Of a DNA stretch of 64,000 bases, positions 3,024 to 26,118 are shown in pieces. Source of the stretch: Bacteroidota bacterium. Lineage in GTDB: Bacteria > Bacteroidota > Bacteroidia > 2-12-FULL-35-15. The notes under the pieces are model-generated. The model was not told the origin of the DNA. It searched no databases and saw nothing but the letters and a program-made list of their open reading frames with translations. Made by a program: the position numbers and the translations under genes. How positions within the stretch are numbered: the first letter of the stretch is position 1; the number at the start of each line of letters is the position of its first letter. The stretch is from the NCBI GenBank assembly GCA_947466965.1, contig CANIFU010000006.1:1-64000 (forward strand), given 5' to 3'.

Positions 3024-4091
3024 CTAATTTATTATTGTTACTGTTCCATTTTTCTTGCCTTGACCTTCACCTAGATCTAACACATAAAAATAAGTCCCTG
3101 CAGGTAATGTTTCTCCAAATGCTTTTCCGTCCCAATTGTTTACATACGGACTAGATTTGTAAACTAATTTACCGTTTCTATTATAAATTTCTAGTTTGTT
3201 TGAAGGATATTTATAGATGTTTCCAATATACCACGTGTCATTATTTCCATCATTATTGGGTGTAAAAGTGTTATAAAAAACCAACTCATCACTAGGAATT
3301 ACAAATACGGTCATTGAATCGTAATTCGGACATTTGTTTGAATCATCTGTCCCGTAAAGATAATAGGTTGTTGTAACGATTGGTTCAGCTTCTGCATTGG
3401 GAGAAAACTGGTAGGTAAGTGTCGCAGGTGGTGACCATGCATAATAAAAGCCTCCCGTTGCATTCAAAATCGTTACTTCTCCTTCATGAATTGTAACATC
3501 AGGTCCGGCATTGATGTTGGGTGTTGGTATAACGGTAACTGTTACTTGATCTGTAACGGGTGGACAAGCAGAACTTGTAGCAGTTAGGGTATACGTTGTA
3601 GAAACTAATGGAGCGGAAGTAGGGCGAGGTAAAATATTATTATTAAGATATGTAGTGGGCAACCATGTATAAGTAACTCCTGCTCCTGAAACATTTAAGT
3701 CGGCTCCCAATAAAGCGTAACTGTTTTCACAGATACTGGTATCGTTTCCTGCATTTACATTGGCTGAATAATGTAATGATACAATAACTACATCCGTTGC
3801 AACAGCTCCTGTATCATCGGTAACAGTTAACGTGTAAGTTGCATATGAAAGCGGGCTACAAATAGGGTTAGGTATAGATGTGCTAGTCAGGAAATTAGGA
3901 GGGCTCCAGGAATAAGTATATGGTGCCAAGCCTCCAATAGCAGGCGAAACGCTTCCTATTAATGTATTTAAACCTACACATACAACTTTATCTGGGCCTG
4001 CATTTACTGTAAACTGAGCAAAGGAAGTTTTGCAATTGAATGTTGTAAATGCAATTAAGAAATAAAAAAAGTAAGGCTTAATTTTAAACAT
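3024..4091 (-). CDS. T9SS type B cargo protein with PKD/Ig-like repeats and gliding-type C-terminal domain
   Basis: A secreted surface protein of about 355 residues. The N-terminus (MFKIKPYFFYFLIAFTTF..) is a signal peptide. It is followed by three similar Ig/PKD-like units, each beginning with an NAG-D motif (NAGPDKVVC, NAGNDTSIC, NAGPDVTIH) and containing YTYSW or YTW-type and TYTLT strands. The last 85 residues are the CHU_C (gliding motility-associated) sorting domain with FTPNNDGNNDTW, LEIYNRNGK and NWDGK...LPAGTYFY. This domain directs export through the type IX system and often requires a PorP/SprF partner, which is the next gene. The start at 4091 fits the signal peptide; an in-frame ATG at 4157 would add a non-signal-like extension. 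Function may be adhesion, but the ligand is unknown. Confidence 0.88.
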   Translation of the reverse strand: MFKIKPYFFYFLIAFTTFNCKTSFAQFTVNAGPDKVVCVGLNTLIGSVSPAIGGLAPYTYSWSPPNFLTSTSIPNPICSPLSYATYTLTVTDDTGAVATDVVIVSLHYSANVNAGNDTSICENSYALLGADLNVSGAGVTYTWLPTTYLNNNILPRPTSAPLVSTTYTLTATSSACPPVTDQVTVTVIPTPNINAGPDVTIHEGEVTILNATGGFYYAWSPPATLTYQFSPNAEAEPIVTTTYYLYGTDDSNKCPNYDSMTVFVIPSDELVFYNTFTPNNDGNNDTWYIGNIYKYPSNKLEIYNRNGKLVYKSSPYVNNWDGKAFGETLPAGTYFYVLDLGEGQGKKNGTVTIIN

Positions 4092-4308
4092 ATTATTATT
4101 TGTAGGTATTTTACGAACACAAATGTAGCGATATAAATTGTAAATATAAACACCCATTTACCTATAGAAATTAGCTTTCTGTCTTAATTATTTTAATGTG
4201 TTATTTCTTTTTTTGCTGCGAATAAAAAAATAAAAGGAATAAATTCATAATAATTTGAACTATTCTAATAATTCGAGTTATTTTGTAATAAATTTTAATG
4301 GAAGTCCG

Positions 4309-5787
4309 GTGGAAAAACATATATTAAGTAAATCAACCTTTTTACGCGGACTGCAATGTTCGAAGTCGCTTTATTTATACAAATACTTCATACAAAAAAG
4401 AGATTCGGTTTCAACCGAACAACAAGCTATTTTTAACAGAGGAAATAATGTCGGCCTACTTGCCCAAAAACTTTTTCCAGGAGGCATTGATGCAACACCT
4501 TCGAAACGTTCAAATAATATTGAAGCGGTTACAAATACAAGGAAATTAATTGAAAGTGGAGTGGAAGTTATCTATGAAGCTGCTTTTCAGCACGAACAAG
4601 TGTTGGCAATATTAGATGTGTTGGTTAAAAAAGATGGACAATGGTTTGCCTATGAAGTTAAAAGTTCAACAAAAATTTCACCTACTTATTTGTTAGATGC
4701 ATCCTTGCAATATTGGGTGATTACCAACTCAGGAATTGCTCTTGTTGATATAGCTCTTATTATAATTAATAATCAATATGTGAGAAAGGGCGCCCTTGAT
4801 TTAGATGGACTTTTTGCAATAAAATCAGTTTTAAAAGAAGCATTAAATAATCAGCCCCTGGTAGAAGAAAATATTCTTCTTTCTAAGTCCGTGATTGCCA
4901 ATGCAACTGAACCTGATGTAAAAATCGGTGAACATTGTTTTAGTCCTTATACATGTGATTTTATGGGCAATTGCTGGAAAAATGTCCCCTCAAATTCTAT
5001 TTTTGAGATTACAGGTGTGAAAAAATCAGAACTTTTTGAATTGTTTAATGCTGGTTATAAAACGGTCAACCAAATTCCAGAAAAGAATGAATTAAATAAA
5101 CAGATCAATCTTCATATTCAGGCCGCTAAAAAAATGCAAGCGATTGTTGATATAAAAGCAATACATTCTTTTCTGGACAAGATCAACTATCCTGTTTTTT
5201 TTATGGATTTCGAAACATTTATGCCCGCGATTCCTATGTTTGATAATACGAAACCATATCAACATATTCCATTTCAATATTCATTACATTTTAAAAAAAA
5301 TAAAAGTGCTTCACTGGAGCATTTTGAATTTTTAGCCGAACATCACACTGATCCTCGAAGAGCTTTTGTTGAAAGTCTTTTGAAAGACACTGAATCCCCC
5401 GGCACAATCTTGGTCTACGATATACTTATGGAACGGAATGTTTTGAATGGATTAAAAAAAGATTTTCCTGAATATGCTTCTGAGATTGATAAAAGGTTAA
5501 GTAGGATGGTTGACCTTGTTCAGCCTTTTCAGGAGAAAAACTACTACCATCCTGCAATGAAAAATTCATTTTCTATTAAAAATGTTCTTCCTGCCTTGGT
5601 TCCCGAATTGAGTTATTCGAATCTCAAAATTGCCAGTGGAAGCGTTGCAATGATCGCTTTTGAAAACCTAAATAAGGAAACCGATATGTTTAGGATTTTG
5701 GAAACCCGCGAGCAATTGCTGGAATATTGTAAACTGGATACATTGGCAATGGTTAAGCTTTTTGAAGTACTTGAAGGTGTTCAATAA
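4309..5787 (+). CDS. DUF2779 protein: Cas4-like Fe-S nuclease fused to a DEDD exonuclease-like domain
   Basis: About 492 residues from a GTG start, chosen because homologues start just before LSKSTFLRGLQC; no in-frame ATG is near, and a TTG at 4255 is the other option. Numbering from that TTG, the N-terminal half has PD-(D/E)xK nuclease features: Asp121 and the EVK triad at 134-136, plus four cysteines (35, 228, 234, 240) arranged as in Cas4/AddB-type iron-sulphur nucleases. The C-terminal half carries DFET (318-321) and YCKLDT (491-496), the outer motifs of DEDD/DnaQ-like exonucleases, and is the DUF2779 domain. The pair suggests a DNA-processing enzyme. It stands alone, convergent with ndk, with no CRISPR genes or recombination partners nearby. 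The biological role is not established. Confidence 0.82.
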   Translation: MEKHILSKSTFLRGLQCSKSLYLYKYFIQKRDSVSTEQQAIFNRGNNVGLLAQKLFPGGIDATPSKRSNNIEAVTNTRKLIESGVEVIYEAAFQHEQVLAILDVLVKKDGQWFAYEVKSSTKISPTYLLDASLQYWVITNSGIALVDIALIIINNQYVRKGALDLDGLFAIKSVLKEALNNQPLVEENILLSKSVIANATEPDVKIGEHCFSPYTCDFMGNCWKNVPSNSIFEITGVKKSELFELFNAGYKTVNQIPEKNELNKQINLHIQAAKKMQAIVDIKAIHSFLDKINYPVFFMDFETFMPAIPMFDNTKPYQHIPFQYSLHFKKNKSASLEHFEFLAEHHTDPRRAFVESLLKDTESPGTILVYDILMERNVLNGLKKDFPEYASEIDKRLSRMVDLVQPFQEKNYYHPAMKNSFSIKNVLPALVPELSYSNLKIASGSVAMIAFENLNKETDMFRILETREQLLEYCKLDTLAMVKLFEVLEGVQ

Positions 5788-21420: not shown

Positions 21421-22983
21421 ATGACGTTTAAAAAAAATAGTATTCCTTTTGCAGCTTCAAAGCAGTTCTCACAACTCTTTTTAGACTATATCAGCGGAGA
21501 TACAAAACTTCGCTCCTTCTATTCGCATGTTCCTCATATTGATTCCTTCAAACAGGTTATTGAAGAAATGAGCAGTGAAAACATAAACAGAAAACTATTG
21601 GTTGACGTGTTAACTGATCAGTATTCGAACTTTAAAAAGAGCGATCTACACTTCAATAATATTCAACTTTTATTAAATAAAAATACTTTTACTGTCACTA
21701 CAGGTCATCAGTTATGCGTATTTACAGGTCCTTTGTATTTTATTTACAAAATTCTTTCAACTATTAATTTGGCCGAGGAATTAAAAAAAAATTACCCAGA
21801 GCAAAATTTTGTTCCTGTTTATTGGATGGCAAGTGAAGACCACGATTTTGTAGAGATTAGCTCCATTCATTTGTTTGGTAAAACTGTTAGTTGGAAAAAT
21901 GCTGCGAAAGGAGCTGTAGGAAGATTGAATACAGATACAATGGATATTGTTATTTACGAATTAAGTCAACTACTTGGCGAATCGGAAAATGCAAAATCAT
22001 TAATTCAACTTTTTAGAGATTCATATTTAAATCAACAAACGCTTTCAGAAGCCACACGATATCTTGTTCACCAACTTTTTTCGGATTATGGCTTAATCAT
22101 TCTGGATGCTGATGATGCTCGTTTAAAAGATTCTTTATCTGATATTATTAAAGATGATATTGTTAATAATACAAATTTTAAAATAGTCAATAAAACAATT
22201 GCTGACCTTGAAAAAATTGGTCATAAAGCCCAAGTCAATCCTCGCGAGATCAATTTTTTCAAGCTCACAGATACAGATCGCGTTAGAATTGAAAAAGCGA
22301 CTCCAGAAACATTGTCATACGCTTCCGGTGATTATAGTCCGAATGTTGTGCTTCGTCCTTTATACCAACAACTAATTTTGCCAAACTTGGCTTATGTTGG
22401 TGGCCCTGGTGAGATCGCTTATTGGTTAGAGTATAAGGCTATGTTTGATCACCACAAAATAATATTTCCTGTTCTTATACCAAGGAATTTTGCAATATTG
22501 AGTGATGAAAAAACAGGTCAGCACATGCAGAAGCTAGGCTTAACTTCAGAGGCAATTTTTGAAGATACCGAACAACTGATAAAGGATTTTGTAAATAAAA
22601 ATTCTGATATCTCCTTGTCAGATCAAGAACAAAAAATAAGATCTACTTATAATGAGCTTTCAATTAAAGCTTCATCAATAGATGTTACCTTAAAAGCAAC
22701 TGTAGAATCGGAGTTGCAAAAAGTATTAAAAGGTTTGAATACGATTGAAAGTAAAATTATTAAGTCAGTAAAACAAAAACAGGAAACGAATTTAAATCAA
22801 ATCAGAAAAATCAAGGATAAGTTTTTTCCGAATGGAACTTTACAAGAACGATATGAAAATTTCGCACCTTATTATTTGAAATACGGTAAGCGTTTTATAC
22901 CTGAACTAAAAAAGGTTTTTGATCCTTTTCAATTTGAAATACAATTAACTGAATTCACAGATAGAATAAAAGAGATAGATTAA
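21421..22983 (+). CDS. bshC: Bacillithiol biosynthesis cysteine-adding enzyme
   Basis: A 520-residue BshC, the last enzyme of bacillithiol synthesis, which joins cysteine to glucosaminyl-malate. Family marks are VTTGHQLCVFTGPLYFIYKI near residue 95 and PVYWMASEDHDFVEI near 135, in a Rossmann-like core, with a coiled-coil region around residues 380-470. The length is normal. Its presence implies that the cell uses bacillithiol as a low-molecular-weight thiol, relevant to arsenate reduction and metal stress. Its last four bases overlap the end of the convergent response-regulator gene. Confidence 0.96.
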   Translation: MTFKKNSIPFAASKQFSQLFLDYISGDTKLRSFYSHVPHIDSFKQVIEEMSSENINRKLLVDVLTDQYSNFKKSDLHFNNIQLLLNKNTFTVTTGHQLCVFTGPLYFIYKILSTINLAEELKKNYPEQNFVPVYWMASEDHDFVEISSIHLFGKTVSWKNAAKGAVGRLNTDTMDIVIYELSQLLGESENAKSLIQLFRDSYLNQQTLSEATRYLVHQLFSDYGLIILDADDARLKDSLSDIIKDDIVNNTNFKIVNKTIADLEKIGHKAQVNPREINFFKLTDTDRVRIEKATPETLSYASGDYSPNVVLRPLYQQLILPNLAYVGGPGEIAYWLEYKAMFDHHKIIFPVLIPRNFAILSDEKTGQHMQKLGLTSEAIFEDTEQLIKDFVNKNSDISLSDQEQKIRSTYNELSIKASSIDVTLKATVESELQKVLKGLNTIESKIIKSVKQKQETNLNQIRKIKDKFFPNGTLQERYENFAPYYLKYGKRFIPELKKVFDPFQFEIQLTEFTDRIKEID

Positions 22984-23393
22984 TTTTCTCTTTTTTCATA
23001 TATTTCAATGCTCTTTTCAACAAAGGTTTTTAGTTCTTCAAAATGCCATGGCTTATTGAAGAAAAAATCTAATCTTATTTCATTAACGAGTTCTTGAATA
23101 GCAATGGTATCATATTGGCCAGTCAGAATGGCGTTTATGTTGTTTGGGTTTGCATTTCTAATCATTCGAATTACATCAGTGCCTTTGTAGTTTTCTAAAT
23201 TGAAATCTGTTATTACTATTGCAATCCTAATATTTTGTTCAACTAAATCATTGCAAATAATTACACATTCTTCAAAAGATGACGCAGCTTCTAGAAGATA
23301 TTTTGAAGGTAAAAAGCTTTCTAACTGCATTTTAAGTGACTCAAGAAGGATTAGATCGTCATCAACTATCAATATACAAATTTTGTTTTTCAT
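22980..23393 (-). CDS. Receiver-only response regulator 1 of the H-NOX module
   Basis: A 137-residue single CheY-like receiver domain with no output domain. The acidic pocket is DDD at 11-13, the phospho-accepting Asp is Asp63 (ITDFNL), the switch Thr is Thr91 and the conserved Lys is Lys114 in NKPW. The KPW motif is common in receivers that serve phosphorelays or HD-GYP proteins. It is the last gene of the leftward unit, and its start overlaps the end of the second receiver gene by four bases. It is convergent with bshC. Output must be by protein-protein contact or phosphotransfer to a partner outside the window. Confidence 0.9.
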   Translation of the reverse strand: MKNKICILIVDDDLILLESLKMQLESFLPSKYLLEAASSFEECVIICNDLVEQNIRIAIVITDFNLENYKGTDVIRMIRNANPNNINAILTGQYDTIAIQELVNEIRLDFFFNKPWHFEELKTFVEKSIEIYEKREN

Positions 23394-23800
23394 AAGTTGT
23401 TTTTTAGAAAATGACTAGAAACTTCATTTATAATATCAATTAATTCCTTTTCTTGCCAAGGTTTTTCAATAATTTTCTTGACAATTTTTGACTCAATCAA
23501 TTCATTAAATTTTTCTTGTTTCATATGGCCGGTTATCATTACTATACTTATATTTTGGTATTTTTGCCTAAGGATAGATGCAAATTCATCACCTTTAATA
23601 CCAATCATTTGGTAGTCAGTTATTATTAACAATAAAGATACTCCTTCTGCAACAAGATAGGAACAAATGTCTAATCCTTCTTCTGCACTTTCAGCAAATT
23701 CAATTTGGTATTTGTCTCCAAATTTTTTTTCAATTTGATCTCTAATTGAATCAAGAATTAACTTTTCATCATCTACGGCAACAATTGCTATTCTATTCAT
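23390..23800 (-). CDS. Receiver-only response regulator 2 of the H-NOX module
   Basis: A 136-residue CheY-like receiver domain alone. Visible residues are DDE (10-12), phospho-accepting Asp62 (ITDYQM), Thr90 and Lys113 (EKPW). It shares the overall pattern and KPW ending with receiver 1, but the two differ at many positions, so they are not a recent duplication. Its start overlaps the 3' end of the histidine kinase gene by 8 bases, showing translational coupling. The likely phosphodonor is that kinase. Confidence 0.9.
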   Translation of the reverse strand: MNRIAIVAVDDEKLILDSIRDQIEKKFGDKYQIEFAESAEEGLDICSYLVAEGVSLLLIITDYQMIGIKGDEFASILRQKYQNISIVMITGHMKQEKFNELIESKIVKKIIEKPWQEKELIDIINEVSSHFLKNNL

Positions 23801-25385
23801 CTTTTATAACTTTTAAAGGTATTTGTATCTCAAAAGCAGTGGCTTTTTCATTGCTTTCGACATGGATTTTACCACTATGTTTTTCAATTATTTTTTTTAC
23901 AATATCTAAGCCCATTCCAGAACCATGACCCAGTTGTTTTGTTGTGAAAAATGGCTCGAAAATTTTTGACAATAAATCTTTTGGGATCGCTGGTCCATTG
24001 TTAGAAATAATAATACTATGATACAAATTATTAATTAAAAAATAATCAATTTTAATAGTACATTTATTATTACTTGCTTGTAATGCATTGTTAATTATAT
24101 TCGTCCAAACTTGTGATAGCTCATCTTGATTACCTGTAATTAAAATAGTATCGTGAATATTTATATTGACATTTGATCCATTTTTTATTTTATTCGATAA
24201 CAGTGAAATTGTGTTTTCAAAGCTTTCTTTTAGATTAAATGTTGTTAATACTCCATTTAAGTTTCCATGGGAATAATTATTTAAAGTTTTTACAACCTTT
24301 GTTGCTCTACTTGTAGCTATTGAGATAGTATTTAAAACTCTGTTTAATCTCGCAAATCCACTTGCAATTGAAAATATTTTTCTTCTGTTAGGTAATTCTA
24401 AAAACGAAATCAATGTTGGGTCAATTTCACTAAAGCCCATTTCTAATATTTTCCGAGAATAAAAATTTGTTTCATTAACATAAGGTGTTTTTATATTTAA
24501 CTGTTGTGAAATAGTTGATAATAATTCTCGCTCCTCTCTTGTTGTTAAATATTTTTTTTCATAATTAACGATAGATAACAAACTGATAGCACTTTTATAG
24601 TCATTAAAATTCAAATCATTTAATTCCGATATAATGTCTTTTTTAACTGTATCAATCAACGTTTGACAGGATGCGTTGATTGCTCCAAGTGGCGTATTTA
24701 TTTCGTGTGAAATTCCAGCAATTAATAAACCTAATGTAGCCATTTTTTCTTGCTGAATCATTTCTTTTTGAATATTAAAAAGTTTTTCAAGAGATTCCTC
24801 AAGAGCAATTTGTTTTTGAACTAATTCATTTGTACGTTCATTCACTCTTTTTTCTAAAATTGCATTAGCATTAACAAGCATTTGTTTTGATAAAACCAAT
24901 TCTTTATTTGTATTATTTAAAGATTGATTAAATAATTTTAATTCCTCGAGTCCTTTTGTTGAAGCTTGCTGTAAAAAAACATATTCCGCGATATAATCAT
25001 GTTTCGGGAAGTCGTTTAATGAAAGTTTATAATCCAAAAGATTATACTGAGAGTTAATTACTGCATTAGCAAGAATAATAAAAGATTCGTTTTCAATTTT
25101 TAAAACGGTACACTTATATCTTTGTTTTTTATTTTTAGATGTAAAAAACAACAATCTTTCCGCTTTAAAAGTTTCTTTCGTATTAAGTTGGGATTCCCAA
25201 ATAAAAAAATCCTCGAATGAGCTGCCAATTTTAATTCCATCAATTGAATTTATAAAATTCTTCCCAATTTCGATTATGGAATTAGAGGAATCAATTATAA
25301 GGAAATAAGGAGTGGTGTAATTAAGAATTGGAATGGTTTTATTAAAAGAAAAAACATCTCCTATATCATTATTAATTATATTCAT
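23793..25385 (-). CDS. Cytoplasmic histidine kinase with H-NOX-associated (HNOBA-like) PAS domain
   Basis: A 530-residue kinase without a membrane segment. Residues 1-150 look like the HNOBA PAS domain that accompanies H-NOX proteins, seen in YFLIIDSSNSI (26-36), the ERLLFFTSK strand near 76 and LSLNDFPKHD (121-130) leading into a helix. A long coiled coil covers about 135-215. The H box GISHEINTPLG places the phospho-His at 227. The ATPase part has DELSQVWTNIINNAL (N box), NNGPAIP (G1), FEPFFTTK (F) and GSGMGLDIVKK (G2). The insert between H box and N box is long. It lies downstream of the H-NOX gene and overlaps two receiver genes. The HNOBA assignment is by eye and should be tested. Confidence 0.85.
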   Translation of the reverse strand: MNIINNDIGDVFSFNKTIPILNYTTPYFLIIDSSNSIIEIGKNFINSIDGIKIGSSFEDFFIWESQLNTKETFKAERLLFFTSKNKKQRYKCTVLKIENESFIILANAVINSQYNLLDYKLSLNDFPKHDYIAEYVFLQQASTKGLEELKLFNQSLNNTNKELVLSKQMLVNANAILEKRVNERTNELVQKQIALEESLEKLFNIQKEMIQQEKMATLGLLIAGISHEINTPLGAINASCQTLIDTVKKDIISELNDLNFNDYKSAISLLSIVNYEKKYLTTREERELLSTISQQLNIKTPYVNETNFYSRKILEMGFSEIDPTLISFLELPNRRKIFSIASGFARLNRVLNTISIATSRATKVVKTLNNYSHGNLNGVLTTFNLKESFENTISLLSNKIKNGSNVNINIHDTILITGNQDELSQVWTNIINNALQASNNKCTIKIDYFLINNLYHSIIISNNGPAIPKDLLSKIFEPFFTTKQLGHGSGMGLDIVKKIIEKHSGKIHVESNEKATAFEIQIPLKVIKDE

Positions 25386-25572
25386 TTTGGGATAATATCA
25401 ATTATTATAAAGTAACTATAAATTTTAACCTATAAAATCCTTTCTGATTTCTATTAGTTTTTTTTAAAACAAATAAAGCTAATTTTTGTTTCACAAAATT
25501 TAGTTTTAGGAGTTTTATTAATATTTAAATTGTTTTTTTTTGTTGAAAAAAAATCTATTCGAAATAGTTTAA

Positions 25573-26118
25573 CTACCATTCAATTTTAAAGATATGACAG
25601 CCATTTGTTTCGTTTTTTTCCTGAATATGAGTGATTTGAATTTTTTCGATATTAAATCTTTTCCCAAGTCCTCTAATAAGTCCTATAACCATTGGTGTCA
25701 TTCCTTCTCTTTTAGATCTATATTCTAACTCAATAGAATTTGGTGTTTCATTTCTAGTACTAAATTGAGGTGCAACTAATTCGGGCATAATATTATTTAC
25801 GCGATTGTGCAGCATGTCAAGATTGTTTAAAAATTCAGGGAGGCTATTGCCTGCTAAATTTAGCATTTCTCCATAACCCTCGTTTGCAGTATAAAGAATC
25901 CAATATTCTCCAAATGCTTCCATGATAATATTTGACTCTGCTCCCAGAACCTTAGATGCATTATGAACTAAGCTATAGGTGAGGGAGTCTGGATAAGGTT
26001 GTAAACCTATAAAAAAATCATCTTCAAAATTAGATAGTTTTTTTATTTCAGCCCATTTGTCTTTACCGAATTTTTCGCAGACTAAATCTTGAATCGCTTT
26101 ATTAACAAGTCCGTACAT
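25573..26118 (-). CDS. H-NOX haem protein (nitric oxide / redox sensor)
   Basis: A 181-residue stand-alone H-NOX domain, the bacterial relative of the soluble guanylate cyclase haem domain. Haem-binding residues are visible: proximal His104 in LDMLHNRV, and the propionate clamp Tyr133-x-Ser135-x-Arg137 (YRSKR). The length and the MYGLVN start are canonical. Cysteines occur only at 14 and 174, so the Cys/His zinc site that gives some H-NOX proteins thiol-redox sensing appears incomplete. Such proteins bind NO and inhibit or activate a partner kinase. The kinase gene lies 187 bases downstream, a gap that may hold its own promoter. Confidence 0.95.
   Translation of the reverse strand: MYGLVNKAIQDLVCEKFGKDKWAEIKKLSNFEDDFFIGLQPYPDSLTYSLVHNASKVLGAESNIIMEAFGEYWILYTANEGYGEMLNLAGNSLPEFLNNLDMLHNRVNNIMPELVAPQFSTRNETPNSIELEYRSKREGMTPMVIGLIRGLGKRFNIEKIQITHIQEKNETNGCHIFKIEW

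Follow-up and report, generated by a model that had tools for sequence, protein, structure and literature searches.

Do four adjoining genes of a Bacteroidota bacterium, encoding an H-NOX protein, a soluble histidine kinase and two CheY-like receiver proteins, make up a nitric oxide (NO) signalling pathway, and where would such a pathway lead? The genes lie on the minus strand at positions 22980-26118 of the window, the 64,000-nucleotide stretch of contig CANIFU010000006.1 analyzed here. The bacterial H-NOX pathways characterised in reviews are mostly from Proteobacteria, and the reviewed outputs are cyclic di-GMP (c-di-GMP) enzymes, quorum-sensing relays and a transcription factor (PMC8738867; PMC8846402). 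We consider it likely that the four genes form an NO-responsive two-component module in which H-NOX acts via an HNOBA-containing kinase on both receivers, termed RRa and RRb; this estimate excludes the output, which is treated separately below. All four open reading frames were found with the coordinates that an initial annotation of this DNA had given them, and their order is H-NOX, kinase, RRa and RRb. The features of the module are as follows.

25573..26118, minus strand: stand-alone H-NOX of 181 amino acids (HNOB 166.1 bits; Nostoc Alr2278 E 1.5e-52; residue positions as given in the text).
25386..25572, no strand: AT-rich spacer of 187 bp between the H-NOX and kinase genes, 16.6% GC (sequence).
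23793..25385, minus strand: soluble histidine kinase of 530 amino acids, consisting of HNOBA, a signalling helix, DHp with an insert, and HATPase.
24858..25337, minus strand: HNOBA (H-NOX-associated PAS) and the start of the coiled coil, kinase residues 17-176, with the motif LSLNDFPKHD (Pfam, hhalign, fold).
24705..24707, minus strand: His227, the predicted phospho-accepting histidine (SHEINTPLGAI; HisKA match 219-248).
24387..24620, minus strand: helical DHp insert of about 80 residues with a TREER motif (AlphaFold model and alignments).
23811..24134, minus strand: HATPase_c catalytic domain, kinase residues 418-525 (78.5 bits).
23390..23800, minus strand: RRa, receiver-only, 136 amino acids, Asp62/Thr90/Lys113 (Response_reg 55.9 bits; orthologues in 11 loci).
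22980..23393, minus strand: RRb, receiver-only, 137 amino acids, Asp63/Thr91/Lys114 (Response_reg 41.2 bits; orthologues in 10 loci).

The four-gene module is real and conserved. As near relatives we used 15 loci (L034-L048) from Bacteroidota metagenome-assembled genomes, and in all 15 H-NOX is immediately followed by the kinase gene or the beginning of it. All four genes were found in identical order in ten of them (L034-L039, L042, L043, L045, L046), and since the order recurs in these ten loci the arrangement is not due to chance. The contig of L044 stops after RRa, and those of L040, L041 and L047 stop too early to tell; receivers were absent beside the kinase of L048. The suggestion of the initial annotation that H-NOX, an HNOBA-type kinase and two receivers belong together was therefore correct, as was its description of two CheY-like genes overlapping each other (4 bp) and the kinase gene (8 bp with RRa). 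RRb also overlaps the end of a convergent gene by 4 bp. The H-NOX gene overlaps no neighbour and is separated from the kinase gene by the 187-bp spacer. In most relatives the two genes lie some 0-12 bp apart or overlap slightly, and the kinase has a GAF domain at its N-terminus; no remnant of a decayed GAF domain was found in the 187-bp spacer. The extra N-terminal GAF is present in most near-relative kinases, and many have another PAS and/or GAF region between the coiled coil and DHp. The window shares the short form of the kinase with L034, its closest relative.

H-NOX was identified in 27 of 395 sampled Bacteroidota genomes. At 29 further Bacteroidota H-NOX loci a kinase was adjacent in at least 23, with a recognisable HNOBA domain beside H-NOX in 10, so that the expected linkage of H-NOX and kinase in related genomes extends from the near relatives to most distant loci. 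The distribution is patchy, since a clear kinase orthologue was present in only 2 of 35 other genomes of the window's genus.

The sensor is the best defined component. The Pfam HNOB match covers the model at full length (positions 1-163 of 163), and Alr2278 of Nostoc was the best PDB match. The initial annotation had described a stand-alone H-NOX with His104 and a YxSxR clamp, and we found both, the clamp as Y133-x-S135-x-R137; by homology His104 is the putative haem ligand. The distal pocket contains Trp73 and Met143, as in Nostoc H-NOX, and the tyrosine at the position used by O2-binding H-NOX proteins is absent. A distal tyrosine in H-NOX is associated with O2 binding. A search of the genome found no H-NOX other than the copy in the window.

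The first 150 or so residues of the kinase had been likened to the H-NOX-associated PAS domain, and this assignment held. The Pfam HNOBA profile gave 23.4 bits, exactly the Pfam cut-off of 23.4, and 15.3-29.2 bits in the scanned relatives where a score was reported; the tie is backed by hhalign and by the fold. The N-termini of the near relatives, in an alignment with no cyanobacterial row, matched the flavobacterial-type HNOBA domains of Bacteroidota H-NOX-linked kinases (98.4%, E 6.8e-15). The AlphaFold model of residues 17-176 (pLDDT 80.5), whose input alignment had one cyanobacterial row, found only chains of soluble guanylate cyclase and the Nostoc HNOBA PAS structures 2p04 and 2p08 among its top 21 PDB fold matches. 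An HNOBA profile that matched 2p08 with E 3e-15 (A2) was dropped, because it contained a cyanobacterial row and the match vanished without that row. The LSLNDFPKHD motif stands before a long helix (residues 130-255). By profile comparison and predicted fold, the N-terminal domain of the kinase is a divergent HNOBA domain.

The kinase core has the HATPase domain, a HisKA score of 29.4 bits and an intact His227 that was invariant in alignment A1. In the AlphaFold model of the kinase (pLDDT 78.7, pTM 0.44) a continuous helix spans residues 130-255, followed by four short helices (260-329) and DHp alpha2 from 334. The model and the alignments thereby place an insert of about 80 residues between alpha1, which extends to 255, and alpha2. 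The distance from His227 to the alpha2 motif is 133 residues, compared with 70 in the kinase of Cylindrospermum (L049). The TREER motif of the insert is kept in most relatives and, as 'TSREER', in L116, a locus from another family of the class. The insert had no match to a Pfam family and no PDB match by profile. Its own profile matched in 1 of 118 sampled Bacteroidota genomes, that of the window; the profile underestimates the spread of the insert, as a related TSREER insert is present in L116. At the hairpin tip the insert could affect autophosphorylation or receiver choice. The long helical DHp insert with (T/S)REER was thus observed at 24387-24620 of the window and in the L116 kinase (3732-5267). 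A comparably long DHp stretch was seen in a kinase with a weak match to a cyclic nucleotide (cNMP)-binding domain (L118:5597-7018); behind it lies a response regulator fused to a pyridine-nucleotide-disulphide oxidoreductase (L118:7018-8676).

Both RRa and RRb consist of a REC domain only. The residues for phosphorylation are complete in each, including the acidic pair, and the two proteins are paralogues with 31% identity. The best NCBIfam match of both was NosR, which was not assigned, since its scores of 52-56 bits fall below the cut-off of 400 and the match is confined to the receiver part. As judged from sequence, the module has all its parts, with intact catalytic residues and a conserved order of four genes.

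The steps of the proposed mechanism, that is haem and NO binding, contact between H-NOX and HNOBA, phosphotransfer to both receivers and the sign of the response, are drawn from homology. The ferrous-haem H-NOX is expected to bind NO, since the distal tyrosine is missing, and to change conformation. NO-bound H-NOX would then act through the PAS-like HNOBA domain of the kinase, as H-NOX and PAS of soluble guanylate cyclase interact. The signal would travel along the long coiled-coil helix to DHp and alter autophosphorylation at His227, from where phosphate would pass to the two co-translated receiver-only proteins. In the characterised Shewanella and Vibrio pathway the kinase is inhibited by NO-bound H-NOX.

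Where the signal goes from the receivers is less clear. The initial annotation had stated that the output is not encoded nearby. This is correct within the window; the relatives, on the other hand, name a candidate that has an orthologue elsewhere in the genome. Eight of the 15 near relatives (L035, L036, L037, L038, L039, L043, L046, L047) have a REC-SpoIIE gene (RsbU-like PP2C) at the side of the module, and Pfam confirmed its domains for three of the eight. L116 has H-NOX, an HNOBA kinase, a REC gene and REC-SpoIIE in one operon, next to convergent genes for SiaC, DUF6272 and SiaC; DUF6272 is SiaB-like by our own reading. L120-L122, from the same genus, have kinases with a similar core followed by REC-SpoIIE genes. 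The orthologue in the window's genome (C66:8798-9988) is 54% identical over 375 residues and lies beside a PAS/GAF kinase and a 139-amino-acid gene that resembles the HbpS-like gene of L039. In L039 the REC-SpoIIE gene, the HbpS-like gene and the start of a PAS/GAF-type kinase follow directly downstream of the H-NOX module. The HbpS-like, haem-related gene of this set is located at:

L039:6955-7374.
G000:C66 (L070:13617-14036).

The window's genome also holds three SiaC and two DUF6272 genes, with a SiaC/DUF6272 pair near two SpoIIE-type genes on C10. No GGDEF domain was detected in this genome by a search that was positive in 8 of 14 control genomes, and a c-di-GMP output is for this reason unlikely. 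From these gene neighbourhoods, a REC-SpoIIE phosphatase (RsbU/SiaA-like PP2C) feeding a SiaB/SiaC-type partner switch is tentatively put forward as the most likely output, with RRa and RRb then serving as relay, sink or protein-binding effectors. NO may, on this provisional assignment, be wired via H-NOX, the HNOBA kinase and the receivers to a PP2C/Sia-type Ser/Thr partner switch rather than to c-di-GMP or quorum sensing, with the kinase relaying the signal across an unusual DHp hairpin that holds the helical insert. We found no report of an H-NOX pathway with PP2C/Sia output in the open-access literature searched, which is weak evidence of novelty; H-NOX and SpoIIE occurred together there in one paper, which was unrelated.

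Several observations weigh against this chain from sensor to phosphatase. HNOBA lies at the edge of sequence detection; a profile built without the cyanobacterial row (A4) failed to find 2p08, which is why the domain is called divergent here. The REC-SpoIIE gene on C66 is unlinked to the module and adjoins a kinase of its own, which may be its real partner. A receiver tree, in which branches were long, did not show orthology between RRb and the receiver of the L116 REC-SpoIIE, nor did it support a derivation of RRb from the receiver part of an ancestral REC-SpoIIE.

It is quite possible that sensor and kinase work as proposed and that the receivers act as a relay or phosphate sink without any PP2C, the effectors being contact partners or the LytTR regulator and second HNOBA kinase encoded on C69. 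Receiver-only proteins commonly act as relay or sink. The C69 kinase, with REC and Hpt domains, has a stronger HNOBA match (83.6 bits) than that of the window and is followed by a REC-LytTR gene, there is no second H-NOX, and similar regulators close the flavobacterial-type H-NOX operons described below. Against a relay or sink without PP2C stands the repeated presence of REC-SpoIIE next to the module and, in L116, inside the operon.

That O2 or the redox state of haem or thiols, and not NO, is the signal sensed by the module is unlikely. Sensing of O2 and responses to oxidation are described for some members of the H-NOX family (PMC7108781), and the REC-SpoIIE gene set includes the haem-related HbpS-like gene. 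The distal pocket, with tryptophan and methionine as in the Nostoc protein and no tyrosine, speaks against such a role, as do the genes of FIST, a candidate NO-sensor family, near the module in L035 and L038. That H-NOX and the kinase are mere neighbours with no joint function would fit the HNOBA score that only ties the cut-off and the 187-bp gap in the window's genome, but is very improbable given their linkage in 15 of 15 near relatives and most distant loci and the hhalign and fold support for HNOBA.

The preferred reading, an NO-responsive H-NOX/HNOBA-kinase module, has known counterparts. The initial annotation had looked to Vibrio and Shewanella; the cyanobacterial H-NOX/HNOBA-kinase pairs are nearer. 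Nostoc Alr2278 and the Nostoc punctiforme H-NOXA kinase (2p04, 2p08) share the stand-alone Alr2278-like H-NOX and the HNOBA kinase. In Cylindrospermum (L049) the two genes adjoin in the same order as in the window, but no twin receivers directly follow the kinase and its DHp is shorter. The H-NOX-HnoK-HnoB/HnoC/HnoD systems of Shewanella oneidensis and Vibrio cholerae likewise have an H-NOX-controlled kinase serving several regulators (PMC8738867, PMC8846402). These systems end in a c-di-GMP phosphodiesterase and a transcription factor, whereas the receivers of the window have no output domain and its genome no detected GGDEF. As to the branched two-receiver circuit proposed earlier, twin receivers belong to the conserved module; branching as such is not new: in Shewanella one kinase phosphorylates HnoB, HnoC and HnoD (PMC8738867). 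The pairing of H-NOX with an HNOBA kinase is likewise already known, from Nostoc. The module departs from known systems in its twin set of receiver-only genes, in the DHp insert and in the PP2C output suggested here.

Soluble guanylate cyclase also combines H-NOX, HNOBA/PAS and a signalling helix, and its chains matched the fold of the HNOBA region; it ends in a cyclase, whereas the module has H-NOX as a protein of its own and a histidine kinase as effector. With the sensor and the PAS domain on two polypeptides, the pair offers a simple model for H-NOX-PAS communication in that enzyme. The SiaABC switch of Pseudomonas aeruginosa (PMC7647112) resembles the PP2C, DUF6272/SiaB-like and SiaC-like genes found in the window's genome and beside the L116 module; a SiaD-type diguanylate cyclase is missing here, and only gene neighbourhood connects such a switch with H-NOX. 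Since a lineage without detected GGDEF keeps the H-NOX/HNOBA kinase, NO sensing probably has another end point in these Bacteroidota, and the relatives name a testable candidate.

Other genes of the window's genome may be related to NO. The second HNOBA kinase on C69 (L061:1046-3466, minus strand) consists of HNOBA, a weak PAS, HisKA, HATPase, REC and Hpt, and is overlapped by a REC-LytTR-like gene (L061:360-1049, minus strand). No H-NOX was found beside this kinase, and the single H-NOX of the genome could therefore serve two kinases. On C84 (L129:4088-6812) a FIST protein, a kinase and a receiver-only gene stand in a row. NosP-type FIST proteins are reported NO sensors (PMC8846402), and the C84 set, at a separate locus of the window's genome, is a candidate counterpart of the NosP-NahK pathway. 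In L038 such a FIST-kinase-receiver set is located next to the H-NOX module.

Among distant loci, flavobacterial-type operons contain REC, H-NOX, kinase, FIST (377 amino acids), kinase, a small Hpt-like gene and a REC-type regulator, and are candidates for having two NO sensors in one operon:

L074:6029-12921.
L083:6086-11859.
L090:5858-11990.

In another class of the phylum an H-NOX-linked kinase is followed by REC-HDOD and REC-HD-GYP genes (L082:6872-10873), again two regulators per kinase with different outputs. Near an H-NOX-linked hybrid kinase, a bacterial sugar transferase is fused to what may, by a weak match, be a receiver domain (L075:12178-13383). Convergent with RRb in the window is a 520-amino-acid gene (21421-22983), which by eye we take to resemble BshC of bacillithiol synthesis; it is probably outside the module, since among the near relatives this neighbour is common to L034 only. 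One genome (G343) has two H-NOX loci, L094 and L095, with about 57 kb between them and identical profile scores; the HNOBA reading frame of the second locus is only 214 amino acids long, which suggests a duplication with a broken kinase.

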